In this document: one piece after another, positions 1 through 10,561 of the stretch
Numbering within the stretch: the first letter of the stretch is position 1
Layout of the letters: each line of letters opens with the position of its first letter
From: Synergistaceae bacterium
Lineage (GTDB): Bacteria > Synergistota > Synergistia > Synergistales > Aminobacteriaceae
DNA: 52,103 nt
Assembly: GCA_031272035.1 (NCBI GenBank)
Contig: JAISUO010000077.1
Coordinates: forward strand, 1 to 52,103
Reading direction: 5' to 3'
Translations under genes and position numbers: made by a program
The notes under the pieces: model-generated
Database searches by the model: none
Told to the model about the DNA's origin: nothing
Seen by the model: only the letters and a program-made list of their open reading frames with translations

Positions 1-200
1 CCGCCGTCGGTGATGTGGATGAGAGCGCCCGTGTTGTTGTTGACGGTTCCGTCGGGCTGGTTGGTGAAGAGCCCGTCGATGAGGATGGTTCCGTCGTTGT
101 TGATGGTTCCGTAGTTGTCCAGACGCCCGGAGCTCGTGACGTGGATGAGGGCGAAGGGAATGGAGGCCCCGTTGTACTGCCGCGTGTCCGTGAATTTGTT
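1..200 (-). repeat. near-identical copy of 3457-3656 (paralogous module)
   Basis: The plus-strand text around 31-170 (TGTTGTTGTTGACGGTTCCG through CCGTTGTACTGC) is repeated around 3487-3640 with few differences, an offset of about 3456 bp. The offset is close to the distance between the two module starts (5870 and 2366), so the two modules are a tandem duplication, with this stretch much more similar at DNA level than the flanks. Confidence 0.75.
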
Positions 201-3200
201 GTTGACGACCGCGCCCTGCTCGTTGATGAACGTCCCGTTGTCCATGATGGTTCCGTAGTTGTCGAAGGTCCCTTTATTGTCCAGAGTTCCGCCGTTGTCT
301 GTTGTTCCCCTGTTGGTCAGGGTTCCGTAAATCAGCAGTTTGCCGCCGGATTGAACGGTAATCGTGCCGTCGTTGACGAGGGTGACGCCGAAGGGTACGA
401 CGGCGGTGGCCCCCGCCGGGATGTTCAGAATCTGTCCCGCGGCGACGGTGAAACCCTCCTGAACGGGGAGGGGAGCGACGCCCGAGACGGTCCATGTGTC
501 GGAGCCGTTCCATGTGAGGGTTCCTCCCGTGTCGAAGCCGGCGCTGTTGTTCGTATTGCCCGTGACGGTTCCGCCTTTGTTCCAGACCAGACCGCGATTG
601 ATCAGGGTTCCTGCGGAGTTCACGTTCAGAGCGCCCCCCGCCTCGACGATGATAATGCCATCGTTTGTGGCCTTGACGCCTGCGGGAATCGTGACCGACT
701 GGCCTGCGGGAATCGTCAGGATTTCGCCCGGGGCGAGGTAGAAACCTTCGGAGAGAACCGCGTTTCCGGAGAGGGTCGCTCTTCCGTTTCCGTCGAAGGT
801 CATGCGCGCCCCCGCAGCCGATCCGCCGGTGATGTTTCCTTTGTTCAGGACCAGACCGTTGTTGGTGAGGCTGCGCGCGTTCAGGTTCAGGGTCCAGCCG
901 GCGGGGACGGCCAGGGTCGCCCCTGCCGGAACGGTCAGGTGGTCCTCGTCCTCCAGTGTGATGGTTTTATTGCTGTTGTCAAAGTTCAGTTTGAGGTGGT
1001 TTAAAAGCAGGACGAGCCCAACGCCGCCAACGCCGTAGATCTTCTGGTTCAGGAGGATTCCGTGGGATCCGTCGGAAGGATAATAGGATGGAACCGGAAC
1101 AGAGGCTGTGCTGACGGATTCCACCGCGCCGGTGGACAGAAGAACCAGGTCGCCGGAGGTAATATCCACCGAAGCGAATCCTCCGTTATTTTCTCCAATG
1201 GGCAAGCCGGACAGCGCCAGGATCGAGCCGCCGGTGAGGCTGACCGAGCCTCCCTTGCCCGATCCGGGGCCGATGGCCGGGCCGGTGCCTCCGACGGCGA
1301 TCACCGATCCTCCGGTGATGGTGATGACGCCGGCATTTCCATATCCGGCCCCTCCCCACGTGCCGCCGATGGCGGCGCTGTCGCCGATGCCGCCGGGCGA
1401 ACGGGCGTCCACGAACCCGCCGGAGATGGTGATGATGCCACCGTCGGCGCTTTGTCCTCCTCCGATGCCCGCGGCGGCGGCGGCGCTGCTGGCCGTGACC
1501 ACGCCCCCCGCGATGGTGATTTTTCCGTGAGTGTTGCCGTTTTTGGGGGTGTACCCGCTGCCGATGCCCGCGCTCCAGCTTGGCGCGGTCGCTTTGACGA
1601 AGCCGCCTGTGATGGTGATGTCCCCCGCCTCGCCGGCGTCGAAGGAGTAGTTGCCCGCGACGGAGATCGCGTCGCCGCCCCCGCCGCCGATGCAGGCCGC
1701 GCCCCAGTCTGTACCTTTCAGATCCGCGCTCAAAGCGCCGCCGTTGATGACGAGGGTTCCTCCGTCGCCCTGGTAGCCGCCGCCCAGTCCCGCGCCTCCG
1801 CCGATGTTCGTTCGGTTGTCCGTCCTGCTGCTGAAGTCGCTGCCTGTGGCCTGGATGGTCCCGCCGTTGATGGTGATGTGCCCGGCCGCCCGTCCGATGT
1901 CGCCGCCGATGCCGGCCCCGTATGTGCCCACGGCGGTGAGGGATCCGGCCAGAGAGCCGTCCCCGTATGCGCTGGTGATCGTCAGAGTGGAGCCCGCCGG
2001 GGCCTGAAGCCCCGCCGAGACCCCGTTGGACTTCAGAACGTTGGTTCCGGCCAGGCGCAGCTTCACCGTCGCCCCCGTCAGGTCGAAGGCGCAGGCGTCG
2101 TCGAAGGCGCTGACGTCGATAGTGGCGTTATCCAGAAGGACGTCCGCGCTGACGCCGGTGGCGACCACCACGCGGTCCCCCTGGTTCGTGCCCGTGATCC
2201 TGTAATATCCGTCCTGGGTGATGGTGATGACGTGCCCTGACCCGAGGACGATGATTTTCGGGGCGCAGGGGCTCCCTGCCGTCGCAGCGTCAGCGGTCGA
2301 GAACGCGAATAATGAAATCGAAAGAGACAGGAATAAGGCCCCAAGGGCTCGTTTCCTGTTCTTCATAACCGTCAGGGCGAAGAGGAGCGCCGCCGCGGTT
2401 CCTGAGCCTGTGGCTGCGCAACCGCCTCCGCCTTTCTTTTTGGTTTTGTCGTCGGCGCCGTCGTCCACGGAGCCCCCGACGCCGATGGTGAAATATGTCG
2501 CGGGCGGGTTCAGGTTTTGCGCGTACTCGCTGCCGTCCGTCAGGCTCCACTCGATCCGGGATATGCTGAGGTTTTGAAGGTCCGTCAGGGTCTGCGCCGT
2601 CCCCGTTATCCGAAGCACCGGAACTCCGTCGGCGCCCGTGGTCGTCACCAGGGTCACGTAGGAATAGTTCCCTCCCAGAGATGCGTAGATGTGAGCCGTG
2701 CCGTTGGGGAAAATGCCCTCTGCCAGGGGCGCTTCCACCGTGAACGAATACGTCCCGTCGGCGTTTTGTGACTGATCGAGGGTCCAGTGGGCCGGGTCAG
2801 GGTCCACAAGGGTTCCGTCCTGGACGGGTGGAACCTGAACCTTGAGCCTCACCTGATACGTGACCGTGTGATTTCCATCTCCGGAAATCACCGTGTAGGG
2901 CACGGCCTGTCCTCCGGAGAAGTTCCGGAGCTCTCCGCCCTTCGGGTCGACCTGAGCCCTCGCGTCGGGCAGGGTGAAGGTCAGACCCACTCTGGAAAGG
3001 TCCCCTCCGACCCCGTAGGGGACGTTGATGAGCCAGGTTCCGTCGCTCTGACGAATCATGTAACTCTCGGCGAACACCATTCCATACTCGTCGTTGAGCC
3101 TCACCGGCCCCCAGGTGAAGTCCGTGGAGGAGCTGCCGGATCCGGATGCGTCGTTCGCAGGGTCGTTGTCGATGAAGGTTCCGCCGTTGTCGTTGAAAGT

Positions 3201-5870
3201 GCCGCCGCTGGATATATTGACAGTGCCGCCGGAGTTGTCGAAGATCCCGCCCGGGTTGTTGTTGAAAACGCCGCCGTCGTTGATGTTGATTTTGCCGTCG
3301 TTGATCAGGGTTCCGTCGTTGTCGAAAATTCCTCCGTCGTTCACCTCAATGGTCCCGTCGGTGTAGTTGTTGATGGTCCCGCCAGGCTGGTTGTGGAGGT
3401 GGCCGTCAACCTCGATGGTCCCGTGGTTGTTGATGGTCCCGTAGTTGTCCAGGGTTCCGTCATCGGTGATATGGATGAGAGCGCCCTGGTTGTTGTTGAC
3501 GGTTCCGCCGGGCTGATTGGTGAAAAGTCCGTCGATGAGGATGGTTCCGTCGTTGTTGATGGTTCCGTAGTTGTCCAGAACGCCGCCGGGGCCGGTGATG
3601 TGGATGAGGGCGAAGGGAATGGCGGCCCCGTTGTACTGCTTCAAACCCGTATATCTGTTGTTGATGACCGCGTCCTGCTCGTTGATGAGGAGCCCGTTGT
3701 CGAGGACGGTTCCGTAGTTGTTGATGGTTCCCTTGTTGTCCACGATCCCGTTGTTGGTCACGGTCCCGTTGCTGATCAGGGTTCCGTACACCAGCAGTTT
3801 GCCGCCGGACTGGACGTCGATGGTTCCGTCGTTGATGATCGTCGTCCGGATGGAAACGATGGCGGTGGCTCCCGTCGGGACGACCAGTTTTTCGCCCTTT
3901 CCGATGGTGAAACCCTCGGGAAGAGGGGCGCTGGCGGAGGCGGTCCAGGTGTCGGTTCCGTTCCATGTGAGGGTTCCGCCGATCCCGGAAATGTTGGAGG
4001 CCCCGTTGATGGTCCCCCAGTTCTGTATCAGGCCGTTGTCGATGAGAGTTCCGGTCACGTTCAGCTCGCCGCCCGCTCGGACGACGATCTTTCCGTCGTT
4101 GGTCGCCCGGACGCCCGCCGGAACCGTCACTTTCGCGCCGGAGGGGATTTCCAGAATTTCGTCCGGCGCCAGGTAGAAGCCGCCGGACAGCACCGCGTTT
4201 CCGGCGACGCTGCCGACCTTGTTGTTGAATGTGATCACCGCGCCGCCGCCCGAAATCGTCGCTCCGACGGCTCCCTTGTTCACGATGAGGCCCAGATTGT
4301 GGATGCTGTGTCCGCTGGTCACCGTCAGGGTGTAGGTCTCCGGAACCGTGAGTGTCGCCCCCGCCGGGATGGTCAGGTCATTGCTCAGGATAACGGTCCT
4401 GGGGGTGGGATACGTCAGGTCGGGAGAGGTGAGGAATCCCAGGGATCCGTTAGGGGAATAGATGGACGAGGAGACCGAGTCCCAGACGCCGGTCGCCAGG
4501 AGGATGGGCCTGTTTCCGCCTGTGCCTGTGATGCTCACGGGCGTTTTGCTGGGACCGTTGAGAGGGTTGTATCCGATGGAACCAGCGGGGAGGGTCTGGT
4601 TGGACAGGGCGAAGATCGTCCCCCCGGAGAGGGTGATTTGACCGCCGTTGTTGCCGCCGTAAGCGAGGCTGCCCGAAGCGGGGCCGATGGGAGACCCGCT
4701 GCCTTCTCCAAGGGCGACGACCAGACCGCCGGAGATGGTGATGTTGCCGGCGTTTCCGCCCAGGGCGTTGATTCCGCCGGCGGCGCCGATGGCGGCGGGT
4801 GCGGAGACGCCGCCCAGAGATGTCGCCTCCACGTGACCGCCGCTGATGGTGATGACGCCTCCGTCGCCGTCGTAGCCCGCCCCGATGGCCGCGCTGTCGA
4901 CGCCGGCGCTGGCTTGGACCACTCCGCCCGTGATGGTGATGATCCCGTCGTTGTTCTTCGGCGTGTATCCGCTGCCGATGGCGGCGCTCCACCTGGGGGC
5001 CACCACCCGGACGAAACCGCCGTTGATGGTGATGGTTCCCGCCCCGCCGGCGTCCTGGGATCTTCCGCTTATGTTGGAAAGCGTGTCGCCGCCGCCGCCG
5101 CCGATGCCGGCCGCGCCCCAGTCCTCGCTTCCCAGGTCCACGTATACCTTGCCGCCGTTGATGGTGATGGTCCCTCCGTCGCCCTGATGCCCGCCGCCGA
5201 TGCCGGCTCCGCCGCCGATTTGGGCTCCGCTGCCGTACATTTCGCCGTCGCTGCCTCTCGCCTCAATGGTGCCGCCGTTGATGGTGATGCTGCCGGCCGC
5301 CTGGCCGTAGTCGCCGCCGATGCCGGCCCCGCTCATGCCGATGGCTTTCAGGTAACCGTATAATGAGCCGTCTCCGCCTGCGCTGGTGATGGTCAGCGCC
5401 GCGCCGGGGGGAACCTGTATGCCCGCCGCCGCGCCGTGGGACATCACGAAGTTCGTTCCCGCCAAAGACAGTTTCACCGTCGTCCCCGTCATCATCTCGA
5501 AGGCGCAGACGTGGGACAGGTGCCGGACGTCGAGGGTCGCGTTCTCCAGGATGATGTCCGCGCTGACGCCGGAGTTGACTACAACGCGGTCTCCCTGCCC
5601 GCTGCCCCTGATTTTGTAATACCCGCTCTCCGTGATGTTGATGATGTTGGACACCGTGTAGCCGGAGTCGGTTTCAGTCGGCAGTCCCAGAGTGATAACC
5701 CTGGGGGCGTAAGGGTTTCCCGCCGTCTCCGCGCCGGCGGGCGTGACAAAAGACGTGAAAAGGCTCAGGATGGACAGGATGGAAAAAAGGAAAATAAAAT
5801 TTGTGAAAAGGTCATGTGACCGCAGGGGCCTGCAGGACCTTTCGTCCGTCGTTGAATATAGAAACAGCAT
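1..5870 (-). CDS. giant tandem beta-helix surface protein, two fused paralogous modules, 3' end cut by window edge
   Basis: The minus-strand frame is open from the ATG at 5870 to the left edge (1956 codons, no stop), with a strong AAGGAGGA Shine-Dalgarno 7 nt upstream. The first module (residues 1-1168) has a long N-region, a hydrophobic signal peptide ending near Pro-Ala-Gly-Ala (about residue 50), Gly-rich parallel beta-helix repeats of the type GAGIGGG..GDGGTITINGG, then PAGATLTV-type rungs, then short repeats of the type NNYGTINNDGTI (roughly residues 650-900), a compact C-terminal domain, and a GGGGC-hydrophobic-basic tail like the Synergist-CTERM signal (about 1147-1174). The second module repeats the same order starting at Met1169 and is truncated here. 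Role is inferred: exported, surface-anchored, adhesin-like. No enzymatic motif is seen. Whether one polypeptide or two proteins are made is open. Confidence 0.85.
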   Translation of the reverse strand, partial: MLFLYSTTDERSCRPLRSHDLFTNFIFLFSILSILSLFTSFVTPAGAETAGNPYAPRVITLGLPTETDSGYTVSNIINITESGYYKIRGSGQGDRVVVNSGVSADIILENATLDVRHLSHVCAFEMMTGTTVKLSLAGTNFVMSHGAAAGIQVPPGAALTITSAGGDGSLYGYLKAIGMSGAGIGGDYGQAAGSITINGGTIEARGSDGEMYGSGAQIGGGAGIGGGHQGDGGTITINGGKVYVDLGSEDWGAAGIGGGGGDTLSNISGRSQDAGGAGTITINGGFVRVVAPRWSAAIGSGYTPKNNDGIITITGGVVQASAGVDSAAIGAGYDGDGGVITISGGHVEATSLGGVSAPAAIGAAGGINALGGNAGNITISGGLVVALGEGSGSPIGPASGSLAYGGNNGGQITLSGGTIFALSNQTLPAGSIGYNPLNGPSKTPVSITGTGGNRPILLATGVWDSVSSSIYSPNGSLGFLTSPDLTYPTPRTVILSNDLTIPAGATLTVPETYTLTVTSGHSIHNLGLIVNKGAVGATISGGGAVITFNNKVGSVAGNAVLSGGFYLAPDEILEIPSGAKVTVPAGVRATNDGKIVVRAGGELNVTGTLIDNGLIQNWGTINGASNISGIGGTLTWNGTDTWTASASAPLPEGFTIGKGEKLVVPTGATAIVSIRTTIINDGTIDVQSGGKLLVYGTLISNGTVTNNGIVDNKGTINNYGTVLDNGLLINEQDAVINNRYTGLKQYNGAAIPFALIHITGPGGVLDNYGTINNDGTILIDGLFTNQPGGTVNNNQGALIHITDDGTLDNYGTINNHGTIEVDGHLHNQPGGTINNYTDGTIEVNDGGIFDNDGTLINDGKININDGGVFNNNPGGIFDNSGGTVNISSGGTFNDNGGTFIDNDPANDASGSGSSSTDFTWGPVRLNDEYGMVFAESYMIRQSDGTWLINVPYGVGGDLSRVGLTFTLPDARAQVDPKGGELRNFSGGQAVPYTVISGDGNHTVTYQVRLKVQVPPVQDGTLVDPDPAHWTLDQSQNADGTYSFTVEAPLAEGIFPNGTAHIYASLGGNYSYVTLVTTTGADGVPVLRITGTAQTLTDLQNLSISRIEWSLTDGSEYAQNLNPPATYFTIGVGGSVDDGADDKTKKKGGGGCAATGSGTAAALLFALTVMKNRKRALGALFLSLSISLFAFSTADAATAGSPCAPKIIVLGSGHVITITQDGYYRITGTNQGDRVVVATGVSADVLLDNATIDVSAFDDACAFDLTGATVKLRLAGTNVLKSNGVSAGLQAPAGSTLTITSAYGDGSLAGSLTAVGTYGAGIGGDIGRAAGHITINGGTIQATGSDFSSRTDNRTNIGGGAGLGGGYQGDGGTLVINGGALSADLKGTDWGAACIGGGGGDAISVAGNYSFDAGEAGDITITGGFVKATAPSWSAGIGSGYTPKNGNTHGKITIAGGVVTASSAAAAAGIGGGQSADGGIITISGGFVDARSPGGIGDSAAIGGTWGGAGYGNAGVITITGGSVIAVGGTGPAIGPGSGKGGSVSLTGGSILALSGLPIGENNGGFASVDITSGDLVLLSTGAVESVSTASVPVPSYYPSDGSHGILLNQKIYGVGGVGLVLLLNHLKLNFDNSNKTITLEDEDHLTVPAGATLAVPAGWTLNLNARSLTNNGLVLNKGNITGGSAAGARMTFDGNGRATLSGNAVLSEGFYLAPGEILTIPAGQSVTIPAGVKATNDGIIIVEAGGALNVNSAGTLINRGLVWNKGGTVTGNTNNSAGFDTGGTLTWNGSDTWTVSGVAPLPVQEGFTVAAGQILNIPAGATAVVPFGVTLVNDGTITVQSGGKLLIYGTLTNRGTTDNGGTLDNKGTFDNYGTIMDNGTFINEQGAVVNNKFTDTRQYNGASIPFALIHVTSSGRLDNYGTINNDGTILIDGLFTNQPDGTVNNNTGALIHITDG
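2349..2432 (-). other. Synergist-CTERM-like sorting signal running directly into a second signal peptide
   Basis: Codons at 2432-2418 read Gly-Gly-Gly-Gly-Cys, followed by a small/hydrophobic stretch (AALLFALTV) and a basic cluster (KNRKR), the layout of the Synergistota C-terminal sorting tail. Normally a stop follows the basic cluster. Here there is none. Instead Met at 2366 (the M of MKNRKR) begins a textbook signal peptide (basic start, LFLSLSISLFAF core, Thr-Ala-Asp-Ala end) of the downstream paralog in the same frame. No good Shine-Dalgarno lies in the 15 nt before this ATG. The naming of the tail family is from memory of the motif. Confidence 0.7.
3160..3900 (-). repeat. short Asn/Gly/Thr/Ile coding repeats
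   Basis: DNA units based on GTTGTTGATGGTTCCG (plus-strand view) recur at irregular 18-60 bp spacing and encode NNxGTI, NNxGxI and DNxGTL rungs. They extend the beta-helix rather than forming a CRISPR-like array, because spacing varies and every unit keeps the coding frame. The same kind of block reappears at 1-300 in the second module. Confidence 0.75.
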
Positions 5871-6182
5871 GGTTGAATCCTCCTTATACCTGCACGCGGT
5901 GTGGAAAACGTCGGCGGCGAGTTTTTTATTTTTTAAGAATATTGTATCTTATGTAAAGTAAAATTAGTTAGAATAAATTACCTAATTTGAAGCCAGTCTT
6001 CCTGAACCCCATGAGACCCCAAAAAATAATGAAAGGACGCAAGGAAGAAACGAAAAGTGCGATTTTTTAAAAACAATCTTGCGCGTAAAACTTGCGTATG
6101 AAAGGGGAAAGGTGTATTCTTTTTTTATTCTTATAAAACAATGATTTTAATAATTAAAATTAATTGAAACGGGGTGATTTCT
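5871..6182. promoter_or_regulatory. divergent AT-rich intergenic region with candidate promoter for the carboligase unit
   Basis: This 312-bp gap separates the leftward surface-protein gene from the rightward carboligase unit. On the plus strand TTGCGT (6092-6097), a 17-nt spacer and TATTCT (6115-6120) form a plausible sigma-70 promoter about 60 nt before the start. No promoter as clear was found for the leftward gene, and no RNA gene or small reading frame with a ribosome site was seen. Confidence 0.45.
5878..5885 (-). promoter_or_regulatory. Shine-Dalgarno of the giant surface protein
   Basis: The minus strand reads AAGGAGGA followed by 7 nt (TTCAACC) and ATG. It fixes the start at 5870 and shows the first module has its own strong initiation site, unlike the internal Met at 2366. 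Confidence 0.8.
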
Positions 6183-7850
6183 GTGAAGGCAGCGGAAGCG
6201 ATCGTCAAAATTTGGGAAAAGGAAGGCATCGATACGGTCTACGGCATTCCGGGAGCGGGAATTAACGGAGTCTATAAGTATCTGGCTCAGTCCTCGGCTC
6301 TGAAACATTTCTGCCATCGTCACGAAGAGGCCTGCGTCCACGCCGCGGGCGGCCACTATCGGGCCAGCGGAAGACTGGCCGTCGCCATGTGTACCTCGGG
6401 GCCCGGAGCGACGAATTTCGTCACGGGGCTTTACAGTTGCAATATTGACAGCATTCCGGTCATTGCCGTGACGGGTCAGGCCGTGACGGCGCAGCTGGGC
6501 AAGGACGCCTTTCAGTGTGTGGACATCGCCAAAATATGCGCGCCCATCGCCAAAAAAACCTGGTGTATCACCGATCCCAAAAAGGTCGTGGAGACTTTTG
6601 CGGAGGCTTTCAGAGTTGCCCGGGAGGGCAAGCCTGGGCCGGTGGTCATCGACCTGCCTCTCGACGTTCAGAACGCGGACATCGAGTTCGACCCCTCCGG
6701 CTACGTTCCTCAGAGTTTCACCGTTCCCGCGCCGAAAGCGGAGGACATCGTCAAAGCCATTGCCATGATCAACGAGGCGAAAAATCCCCTTCTGCTCATG
6801 GGCGGCGGCGTGCTGCTGGCCGGGGCGGAAAAGGAGTGCGTGGAGCTGGCTGAAACCCTGAATCTTCCGGTCATCACCACGTATATGGCCAAGGGGGGCA
6901 TCCCCGTCAGTCATCCCCTGAACGCGGGACACTGCGGCATCCAGGTGGGACAGCCCATCGGCAACAAAGTTTTCCTGGATTCCGACCTGGTGCTGGGCAT
7001 CGGCTGTCGCTTCACCGACCGGCATACCGGAGCGATCGGCGTCTACCGCGGCAATCGGAAGTTCATCCACGTCAACATCGAACCCTCCGAAATCGGCAAG
7101 ATTTTCCAGCCGGACCTGGGTATTGTCGCGGACGCCAAAAAAGCCATTGACGCCCTGTTGGCCGAGGCGAAAAAGAGCGGAAAGAAAAGCTCTCATGTGG
7201 ACGTCGCGAAACTGCCGGCGCTGCGGAAGGAACTTGCCCGAAAGGTCGACTACGACGTGAAACCCATCAATCCCCACAGAGTTTTTGCTGAACTGAACAA
7301 ATTTTTCGACAGCGAAACGCTCTTTACGACGGGCTGCGGCATCACGCAGATCTGGTCCGGCCAGCTTCAGGACATCGACAAGCCGCGCCGGTATCTGGCC
7401 TCCGGGGGAGCGGGCTGTCTGGGCTACGACATTCCGGCGGCCTTCGGCGCCACCGTCGCCACGGGGAAACGCAGCGTGGCGGTTATGGGGGACTTCGGGT
7501 TCACCTTCCACGTTCAGGAGCTGGCCGTCTGCGCCGCGAATAAAGTCCCCGTGATCGTGGTCGTCGTCAACAACGCCTATCTGGGGCTCATTCGTCAGAA
7601 TCAGAAATACGCGTATCAGTACGAGTGCGACGTGGCGATGCCGGAGAACCAGGGCCTGATCGACTACGTGAAGGTCGCGGAGGGGTTCGCCTGTTACGGC
7701 GAGCGCGTGTTCAGCGCCTCGGACATTCCGGCCGCGCTGGACCGTGCGGTAAAGAGCGGAAAACCCGCCGTCATCGATATCGTCTGCGATCCCAGCGTGG
7801 ACTGCTCCATGGGAACCGCCCTCGACAACGTGAAGGAATTTGTGTACTGA
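6183..7850 (+). CDS. gcl: glyoxylate carboligase-like ThDP enzyme (tartronate-semialdehyde synthase family)
   Basis: Gcl condenses two glyoxylates to tartronate semialdehyde plus CO2 in the cytoplasm. The 555-residue product has the three-domain ThDP fold; VNNAYLGLIRQ and the C-terminal SMGxxLDNVxEF are close to E. coli Gcl. GTG at 6183 is chosen because GGGGTGAT lies 5 nt upstream; an in-frame GTG at 6174 has no ribosome site. The position that is Val51 in E. coli Gcl appears to be Glu48 here (RHEEAC versus RHVEGA), so the canonical ThDP-activating glutamate is present, which is unexpected for Gcl. It is followed by a tartronate-semialdehyde-reductase-like gene, as in E. coli gcl operons, which supports the role. 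An acetolactate-synthase-like activity is the alternative. Confidence 0.8.
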   Translation: MKAAEAIVKIWEKEGIDTVYGIPGAGINGVYKYLAQSSALKHFCHRHEEACVHAAGGHYRASGRLAVAMCTSGPGATNFVTGLYSCNIDSIPVIAVTGQAVTAQLGKDAFQCVDIAKICAPIAKKTWCITDPKKVVETFAEAFRVAREGKPGPVVIDLPLDVQNADIEFDPSGYVPQSFTVPAPKAEDIVKAIAMINEAKNPLLLMGGGVLLAGAEKECVELAETLNLPVITTYMAKGGIPVSHPLNAGHCGIQVGQPIGNKVFLDSDLVLGIGCRFTDRHTGAIGVYRGNRKFIHVNIEPSEIGKIFQPDLGIVADAKKAIDALLAEAKKSGKKSSHVDVAKLPALRKELARKVDYDVKPINPHRVFAELNKFFDSETLFTTGCGITQIWSGQLQDIDKPRRYLASGGAGCLGYDIPAAFGATVATGKRSVAVMGDFGFTFHVQELAVCAANKVPVIVVVVNNAYLGLIRQNQKYAYQYECDVAMPENQGLIDYVKVAEGFACYGERVFSASDIPAALDRAVKSGKPAVIDIVCDPSVDCSMGTALDNVKEFVY

Positions 7851-7994
7851 AGACTTTTTAATTTAAATTTCAGGTGTTGTCGTGATTTTGCGAGAAGCCT
7901 TCCCGGGCGGAACAGTCTGAGGAGGCTTCCTGCGTTTATAACGGGGGACGGGACCGGAAAAGCTGCAGAATATACTATCGTCGGAGGTTTTACC
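7851..7994 (+). other. intercistronic gap with an imperfect hairpin
   Basis: GAAGCCTTCC and GGAGGCTTC can pair with a one-base bulge in the space between the carboligase and reductase genes. There is no U-run after it, so it is more likely an mRNA-processing or stability element than a terminator. The reductase has its own ribosome site (GGAGG, 8 nt before ATG). Confidence 0.3.
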
Positions 7995-8906
7995 ATGAGC
8001 GACATCACGAAAATAGGCTTTATCGGCCTTGGAGTTATGGGGGGAGCGATGGCATCCAACATGGCGTCCAAAGGGTCCGAGGAGGTTATCGTCTACGATA
8101 TTTCACCGAAGCGGGTCGGAGAATACGCGGAAAAGGGAATGACCCCTGCGGCGTCTTACGCGGATGTCAGTCGGGGAGACGTCATTTTTACGTCTTTGCC
8201 CGACGGCGAAGTTCTGGAGAGCGTTTTTTTCGCGTCGGGAGGGCTCTGTGAGACGCTGCGGGAAGGTCAGATCTTTGTCGATTTGAGCACGGTCAAATAC
8301 TCTGTGACTCTGGAAATTGAAAGAAAAATCAGGGAAAAGAAGGCGCATTTTCTGGACGCCCCCGTTTCGGGAATGGCCGCCCGGGCAATCGACGGGACTC
8401 TCGCTGTCATGTGCGGCGGAGAAGAGGCGATTTTTGAAAAAATATGTCCTTATCTCCGCCGCATTGGCTCCAACATCGTATACATGGGACAAATCGGCTC
8501 CGGACAGGCCGCAAAACTCATCAACCAGCTTCTTTTCGACATCAACGCGGCGGCCATCGCTGAAATATTCCCTCTGGCAGTGAAAATTGGGCTCGATCCG
8601 GAAAAAACGGTCAGTATCGTCAATTCCGGAACGGGCCGCAGCTTTGCTTCAGAATTTTTCGCCCCGGGTATCTTAAAGGACAACTTCACGGAGGGATATG
8701 CCCTGCAGAGCGCGTATAAAGATCTGGTCAGCGCCTGTGAAATTTCTTCTTCTCTGGGGCTGCCGCTTCCGGTGCTGAACGCGGCGGCCATGACGTACCA
8801 GATGGCGCTTCTGAAGGGATATGGAAGCCAGAACAAGGGGTCGATGATTCATGTTTTCGAAGAATTGTTCGGCGTGGCCTTTCGCTCAAAGGAGAGAGTA
8901 CAATGA
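7995..8906 (+). CDS. NAD(P)-dependent 3-hydroxyacid dehydrogenase, tartronate semialdehyde reductase-like
   Basis: A 303-residue member of the 3-hydroxyisobutyrate dehydrogenase/GarR/GlxR family, which reduces tartronate semialdehyde to glycerate. The N-terminal Rossmann motif GFIGLGVMG (residues 8-16) binds the dinucleotide, DAPVSG is the family substrate motif, and GxGQAAKLxNQ carries the catalytic lysine. ATG at 7995 follows GGAGG at good spacing. Its stop overlaps the next start (ATGA, 8903-8906), so it is translationally coupled to the dehydratase. Placement after a carboligase favours tartronate semialdehyde as substrate, but other beta-hydroxyacids cannot be excluded. Confidence 0.82.
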
Positions 8907-10561
8907 ACGACAACAGACACAGACATCCTGAGGACATGACAGAAGCTTATTTCTGCGGCCTCATGCACTCAGCGGGGTACAGACAGTCGGATTTGAACAA
9001 GCCGCAGATCGCGATCGTGAATTCCTGGACGGACGTGAATCCGGGGCATAAACCTCTCGCGGAGCTGGCCAAAGCCGTGCGGGAGGGGATATGGGCTGCC
9101 GGAGGAACTCCCGCGGAGTTCAACGTTCCGGCTCCCTGTGACGGAATGGCGCAGGGGACGGGTATGCACTACATCCTTCCTCAAAGAGATCTCATAGCCG
9201 GGTCCGTTGAGAGCATGGTCAAAGCCCACAGTTTTGACGGCATGGTGATGCTCGCCTCCTGTGACAAAATTATCCCCGGTATGCTGCTGGCCGCCTGCCG
9301 GCTTGACCTGCCGGTGATATTCCTCTCGGCCGGCGCGATGACGCCTTATGTAGAGGGCGGCAACGTTTATGTGACGCCTGACCTGAAAGAATCCATCGGA
9401 CAGCGCAATAAAGGGATTATAACGGAGGAAATCTTTCAGAAGAGGAAAACGACGATCTGCTTTTCTCAGGGCACGTGTTCCATGATGGGAACTGCCAATA
9501 CAATGGGAACATTTTTGGAAGCGACGGGAATCGCCCCCTGGGGTTCGGCGACGATGCTCTGCAATGACGCCAGAAAGTTCTGCCAGGCACGGGACGCGGG
9601 TGAGCGGATTGTTGCGCTGGTCAATGCCGGAAAAAAGTTCAGTGATTATTTCAATGAACGTTCTCTGGAAAACGGCATTAAATATGTGTCGGCGACGGGA
9701 GGATCCACGAACGCGGTGCTGCACATCATGGCTCTGTACCGGGCGCTTGGTCTTCCGATGACGCTTGCGCGGTTCGATGAAATTCAGGCGTCGGTTCCGG
9801 TTATCTGTAAATTCAAGCCCTCTTCGAAATTCAACATCACGGATTACCACAATGCGGGCGGGGTTCCTGCCGTTCTTTCCACGCTTCAAAACAACTTCTG
9901 CCTCGACACGGAGCTTGTAATGGGTGGATCTCTGCGCGAATTTTTGAATAATGCGACGATCGGAGCGGACAGAAACGTGATTCATGAGGCCGATTCTCCT
10001 CTGCATGAATCGGGCTGTTTTTCCATCCTGCACGGCAATCTGGCCCCGAATGGCGCGGTGGTGAAACGCAGCGGGGTAGAGCCTCAGATGATGTATCACA
10101 AAGGGCCGGCGGTGGTTTTCAACTCCGAGGAAGAAGTGCGTGAACATTTATTAAAAAAGAAGGTGGAACCCGGTTCTGTGCTGGTGGTGCGATATGAGGG
10201 CCCGAAAGGCGGTCCGGGAATGAGAGAACTGTCCATCCCCGCGGCCATGCTGGTGGGGATGGGGCTGCATACATCCGTTGCGATGGTCACCGATGGACGT
10301 TTTTCGGGCGCTACGAGAGGTCCCTGCGTCGGGCACGTGAGTCCCGAAGCCTGGGTGGGAGGCCCCATATCGCTTGTGGAAGACGGAGATATTGTGGAAA
10401 TCGACCTGAATCGCAACACCCTGTCGCTTCTGGCGCCGGAGGAGGTGCTGGAACAGCGCCGAAAAGCGGGAATCATTCCGCCGGAGCGCAAAGTGAACGG
10501 AATTTTGAAAACCTACCGGGAAGGGGTTCAGGGAGCGGAAGACGGCGCTCTGTGGCTGTAA
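8903..10561 (+). CDS. IlvD/Edd family Fe-S dehydratase (dihydroxyacid or sugar-acid dehydratase)
   Basis: 552 residues, the usual size. The family removes water from a 2,3-dihydroxy acid to give a 2-keto-3-deoxy acid using an Fe-S cluster and Mg2+. Visible motifs: CDGMAQG at 79, CDKIIPGM with Cys120, and [12 protein letters not shown] with Cys192 for the cluster; PGH at 47-49 as in E. coli Ilv[11 protein letters not shown] near the C-terminus. It is coupled to the reductase by an ATGA overlap. No other branched-chain biosynthesis gene is nearby, while an HpcH/HpaI aldolase lies in the converging operon, so a catabolic sugar-acid dehydratase seems likelier than biosynthetic IlvD. Substrate is inference. 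Confidence 0.82.

Follow-up and report, generated by a model that had tools for sequence, protein, structure and literature searches.

Two surface proteins in one open reading frame

In the window, that is the whole stretch of 52,103 nucleotides analysed here, a single unbroken coding frame specifies two cell-surface proteins. The fused open reading frame (ORF; 3..5870, minus strand) comprises a first protein (copy A), a sorting tail, an internal signal peptide and a second protein (copy B), and it runs past the window edge into another contig of the same genome, C3. We consider it likely that the gene encodes an exported surface polyprotein whose halves are split by signal peptidase and whose first half is trimmed by the protease MrtS. 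At least ten relatives share the arrangement, and these bacteria probably produce surface polyproteins that are cleaved after export, in a manner resembling some animal viruses.

The window is contig C77 of a draft assembly of 122 contigs (genome G000). Translation of the minus strand from the ATG at 5870 gave a frame open to base 3, the window edge (1956 aa), with zero stop codons between the sorting tail and the signal peptide that follows it (2432..2286). A sequence-only reading of this DNA had already claimed that the frame stays open across the junction as far as the window edge, and the claim could be extended beyond it. The left end of C77 is identical to the end of C3 over exactly 119 bases. 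An assembler run at k = 119 leaves a 119-base overlap between neighbouring contigs, and we infer that this applies to C77 and C3; the contig names of a relative (G017, Synergistaceae MAG Md513_bin75) start with k119. The missing 3ʹ part of the gene lies on C3, where positions 1-1266 share 68% identity with the corresponding stretch of copy A, and it terminates in GGGGGCTTGTGFFLGLAALAPLLTEKKK followed by a stop codon, which is a normal terminal sorting tail. The joined ORF of 2339 aa thus reads signal peptide, A, tail, signal peptide, B, tail, stop, and is one uninterrupted ORF with two exported proteins. In a BLAST comparison copy B was 57% identical to copy A across 1132 aa, in agreement with the sequence-only reading, in which the second protein was a paralogue of the first.

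Several other contigs of G000 end in or beside repeat-rich surface protein genes (the left end of C77, as well as C3, C5, C12, C66, C69, C90 and C94), and since many contigs end at such genes, the true count of surface genes and of fusions may be underestimated. Next to the fused gene, at 6174-10561 on the plus strand, three neighbouring genes resemble by eye glyoxylate carboligase, tartronate semialdehyde reductase and a dihydroxy-acid dehydratase family enzyme, which suggests a glyoxylate-to-glycerate pathway adjoining the surface genes.

Parts of the fused gene

All features of the gene lie on the minus strand. The ATG at 5870 is served by a strong Shine-Dalgarno sequence, GGAGG (5879..5883, in UAAGGAGGAUUCA; -12.2 kcal/mol), and opens an N-terminal signal peptide (5730..5870) with a predicted cut at TPAGA^ETAG. 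Signal peptides were called in this study by simple rules and not by a trained predictor. AlphaFold2 modelled the rest of copy A as a long beta-solenoid, an adhesin-like passenger (residues ~57-901, 3168..5702), and a C-terminal beta domain ahead of the sorting tail (residues ~903-1132, 2475..3164), with a mean pLDDT of 67, i.e. moderate confidence. The best PDB matches of the model were TibA and antigen 43; their TM-scores were low, so the term adhesin-like is to be read only as a hint. The region of the C-terminal beta domain is also matched by C5, C19 and C94 of the same genome.

The internal sorting tail, GGGGCAATGSGTAAALLFALTVMKNRKR (residues 1147-1174, 2349..2432), shows the layout of the Synergist-CTERM model TIGR04564, namely a Gly-rich motif with Cys, a hydrophobic span and a basic end (GGGGC-AATGSGTAAALLFALTVM-KNRKR). 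Its Cys1151 (2418..2420) is a candidate for the Cys that is invariant in the sorting motif, as judged from the sequence and from the alignment of fused junctions. The resemblance to Synergist-CTERM noted in the sequence-only reading therefore stands for the layout, but not for the score, as the tail reached 13.2 bits, or 18.7 bits in the genome scan, and remained below the curated cut-off of 22.5, which nine other sites in the genome exceed. In addition, ~1165 residues lie downstream of this tail in the joined ORF, so that it does not occupy the extreme C-terminal location of TIGR04564 tails.

The last residues of the tail, KNRKR (2349..2363), form a basic loop shared between the tail of A and the n-region of the internal signal peptide, and an internal ATG (Met1169, 2364..2366), which has no Shine-Dalgarno sequence (+0.7 kcal/mol), lies just ahead of it. 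The h- and c-regions of the signal peptide follow as ALGALFLSLSISLFAFSTADA (2286..2348), with a predicted cut after Ala1195 (ADA^ATAG), and the mature region of copy B (3..2285) continues from there into the C3 sorting tail and stop. The n-, h- and c-regions were all recognised by the simple rules and by homology to the N-terminal signal peptides of paralogues, with which the internal segment aligns. Hence the tail indeed enters the signal peptide of a paralogue without a stop, as had been noticed from the sequence.

Recurrence across Synergistota

Junction profiles were searched against 188 Synergistota genomes, and 13 fused genes were found, in 11 genomes, six genera and two families. Besides the window they are located at G017:C60, G009:C75, G078:C22, G163:C76, G163:C48, G163:C91, G095:C10, G079:C51, G097:C20, G115:C15, G087:C8 and G164:C103. 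They represent about nine distinct pairs, since G095 and G079, as well as G115 and G087, carry orthologues, and G163 has a trio of paralogues; the two proteins were compared by BLAST in seven of the pairs and judged by eye in those of G115 and G164. The comparison with related Synergistota proposed in the sequence-only reading gave fused genes with no stop in 10 other genomes, next to unfused tandem pairs that also exist. The second fusion seen, G017:C60, came from a homologue search; there GSGCTAGSWPFIAVLCAVAGLIGLAHHKRRSGR continues into SFISLLIFILALLAVSTPAMA^AS, and the junction lacks Met. The same-genus genomes G001 and G002 were also searched, and a homologue of the polyprotein was absent from both. 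A contig scan of the genomes for further fusions gave none that were new, and further hits of the pattern beyond G017 proved to be non-CTERM noise.

The basic loop of the fused junctions spans 2-13 residues overall (2-8 in the nine junctions that were measured, ~13 in G164), and in all 13 genes it leads into a signal peptide that closes with an Ala-x-Ala-like site. In the nine measured junctions the core of the second hydrophobic segment is on a par with the cores of true signal peptides (mean KD 2.3-3.4); 18-23 residues past the last basic residue there is a small-x-small (AxA-like) site, and the distance from Cys to the cut is 41-50. The Cys is kept in 9/9 aligned fused junctions. A terminal sorting tail was not recognisable on the second protein of the G009 and G164 fusions.

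The geometry of the junctions bears on an unlikely alternative, in which the chain stays uncut and the second hydrophobic segment is a membrane anchor, with A and B shown together on a two-helix hairpin. The paralogous halves could act as a single repeat protein, and no sequence feature proves cleavage; however, the AxA-like site is found at the usual distance in all nine measured junctions, and the second segment aligns with N-terminal signal peptides of the cleaved type in paralogues. Moreover, without cleavage by MrtS an uncut chain would remain in the inner membrane, and that cleavage would itself free A.

Two of the fused loci had further features. The three fused paralogues of G163 (C76, C48 and C91) occur in one genome, and two of them share a DNA-identical first-protein tail, owing to gene conversion or to recent duplication; more signal-peptide genes begin within a few nucleotides of the C76 and C91 stops. 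In G095:C10, the second protein carries a C1 peptidase domain, a C-type lectin domain and lectin-like domains after an LRR region, so that a likely secreted protease forms part of a polyprotein.

Chance and selection

An HMM built from 131 terminal tails was run against all ORFs of the fetched loci. It returned 163 distinct CTERM tails, 156 of which end at most 25 residues from a stop, the remaining seven being extended. All seven extended tails run into a signal peptide, a count not free of ascertainment bias, as some of the loci were retrieved with a profile that includes the signal peptide. Under random stop loss, only 7 of the 156 terminal tails (4.5%) would continue in frame into a signal-peptide ORF of 80 aa or more, in a sample which is itself enriched for tail/signal-peptide pairs.

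Selection is a stronger test than these counts. The fused orthologues of G115 and G087 are 71% identical in protein sequence at dS 1.2, with dN/dS of ~0.14 in each half and 0.56 at the junction, where stops and frameshifts are absent and the Cys, IRRRK and FA^D are retained. The fused paralogues of G163 have kept the frame at dS ~1, with dN/dS of 0.23-0.27 (0.29-0.32 at the junction), and G095 and G079 contain the same fused gene from two assemblies, three substitutions apart. The retention of these frames under purifying selection in the relatives shows that fused genes are translated and maintained.

These results also bear on the proposal that the window owes its fusion to a recent stop loss or to a sequencing or assembly error, and that there are normally two genes, joined here without function. 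The junction in the window is known from a single metagenome assembly, and there are unfused tandem pairs whose stop lies merely 3-6 nt ahead of the next start. Nevertheless, the proposal is improbable: the identical architecture occurs in 10 other genomes, among them one gene from two assemblies and orthologues at dS 1.2, and extended tails never enter arbitrary sequence (7/7 signal peptide). As the fused frame is kept at dS ~1.2, sequencing error and recent stop loss are excluded as a general explanation, and the recent stop loss considered in the sequence-only reading is not supported in general, with fused genes conserved across species. That the window alone lost its stop or was misassembled is unlikely as well, given the recurrence, and since the window has neither an intergenic remnant nor a ribosome site, an error would need more than one wrong base. 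An assembly chimera was also considered; against it, the junction sits at a good distance from the contig end, and independent assemblies show the pattern again.

Origin of the fusions

Unfused tandem pairs in the same frame, composed of a tail protein and a signal-peptide protein, were found in G109, G112, G022, G169 and G155. In these pairs the stop is followed 3-6 nt on by an ATG or GTG, and the ribosome site lies in or beside the basic-tail codons. In G022:C207, G112:C9 and G169:C94 the basic-tail codons (AAACGGAGG, AAGAGAGGGCGG) are also the ribosome-binding site of the next gene, a dual-use stretch that carries tail charge and translation start together. The fusions probably arose from such tightly coupled tandem genes via loss of the stop and of a few surrounding nucleotides, and they are probably tolerated, the products still being kept apart through the internal signal peptide.

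It is very improbable that internal initiation at Met1169 is the main source of copy B, with the full-length chain as a by-product. The ATG stands right ahead of the basic cluster, as the start of a signal peptide would, and the G163 junction ATGs show some Shine-Dalgarno pairing and could permit such initiation. The pairing at 2366, however, is +0.7 kcal/mol (vs -12.2 at 5870, and -5.7 to -10.8 at the downstream starts of unfused pairs), by which internal initiation was rejected for the window. G017, G009, G095 and G097 lack an ATG just ahead of the basic cluster, so that it cannot be the general mechanism, and ribosomes from 5870 would still produce the fusion. The internal start at 2366 offered in the sequence-only reading was thus dropped.

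Proposed processing of the polyprotein

For the exported polyprotein that we favour, we infer the membrane topology, both cuts, the lipidation and the benefit of 1:1 expression as follows. The basic end of a CTERM tail lies in the cytoplasm, as does the basic start of a signal peptide; since both ends are cytoplasmic, their merged form would be a short hairpin of correct topology. A single ribosome run would yield A, tail, hairpin and B in one chain. The N-terminal signal peptide would begin Sec export of A, and the sorting tail of A would then halt transfer with its basic end left in the cytoplasm. KNRKR would also serve as the n-region of the next hydrophobic segment, and the export of B would restart. 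Signal peptidase I is predicted to cleave after ADA (residue 1195), releasing B, and MrtS, a myxosortase-type glutamic protease, would cleave A just after or near Cys1151, probably post-lipidation, and so anchor it; by analogy with MrtX, the cut would fall after Cys1151. B would be anchored later through its own terminal tail, and the outcome would be two paralogous adhesin-like beta-solenoid proteins in a fixed 1:1 ratio.

Both proteases are encoded in the fused genomes tested for them. Exactly one CPBP protease was found in each of eight fused genomes searched, and in 7/7 of those tested it scored far above the NF040589 cut-off for MrtS. The MrtS of G000 (239.6 bits vs a cut-off of 130) is the sole CPBP protease found in the genome, and its gene (C3:5608-5877) lies ~4.3 kb past the end of the joined ORF. 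Signal peptidase I was present in 7/7 fused genomes searched, including G000 (PF10502, 176.5 bits). The sequence-only reading had considered a polyprotein cut at the sorting signal. The polyprotein is supported by the recurrence in 11 genomes, the purifying selection in relatives, the canonical internal signal peptide and MrtS; the separating cut, by contrast, would most likely be the work of signal peptidase I, with the sorting protease then trimming the first product, so that cleavage at the sorting signal gives only half of the likely picture.

A more far-reaching proposal seems quite possible, though short of probable: that Synergistota repeatedly evolve true surface polyproteins, in which the hairpin is cut from either side by signal peptidase I and MrtS to give stoichiometric, co-anchored pairs, the fused state being selected and not merely tolerated.

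Comparison with known systems

A search of the open literature for bacterial polyproteins, fbcH included, yielded nothing useful. The cytochrome b/c1 precursor of Bradyrhizobium, fbcH, is a single ORF whose two products are exported or membrane-bound and are split by signal peptidase at an internal signal sequence; unlike the window gene, it belongs to a respiratory complex and has neither a sorting tail nor surface proteins. The Synerg-CTERM/MrtS system (TIGR04564, NF040589) is alike in tail layout and cognate protease, but here the tail is internal instead of at the protein end.

According to the myxosortase paper (PMC11980579), internal MYXO-CTERM motifs are rare, cleavage of MYXO-CTERM by MrtX has been shown and lipidation of the Cys has been proposed. 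For Myxococcus xanthus MXAN_5598, with an internal MYXO-CTERM, its authors suggest a two-gene fusion whose N-terminal part undergoes processing by the myxosortase route; as here, a Cys-type CTERM lies within an ORF. It differs as a single case in another phylum with another Mrt protease, and its C-terminal part is an outer-membrane beta-barrel with an OmpA-type domain. A shared basic loop, an internal signal peptide and a recurrent class are not described in the passage on MXAN_5598. The same text cites an ArtA-dependent substrate of Haloferax whose tripartite signal is not C-terminal (Abdul Halim 2017, reference 46 in PMC11980579); there too a CTERM-type signal functions off the C terminus, but with an archaeosortase and a Tat substrate. 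With these two cases published, the description of the window as a new arrangement in the sequence-only reading was too strong. What goes beyond these precedents is that the arrangement recurs as a class within the Synerg-CTERM/MrtS system, that tail and signal peptide share a basic loop, that fused genes are conserved in evolution and that the two proteases to be expected are both present. The bunyavirus Gn/Gc and flavivirus structural polyproteins likewise have an internal signal peptide, a signal peptidase cut and equimolar surface products (PMC5113920, PMC7601889); they are viral and eukaryotic, and the analogy is one of working and not of membership.

Implications

Fused genes of this kind are probably labelled by automatic annotation as one odd giant protein. 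To our knowledge, there are few descriptions of bacterial polyproteins, and a recurrent, sequence-recognisable class would show operon neighbours merging while their products stay separate. Such a class would call into question the view that a CTERM tail always stands at the C terminus, and the fused genes are a ready substrate to ask if myxosortases require a free C-terminal tail. The junction would also be a natural module for the fixed-ratio production of two surface proteins.
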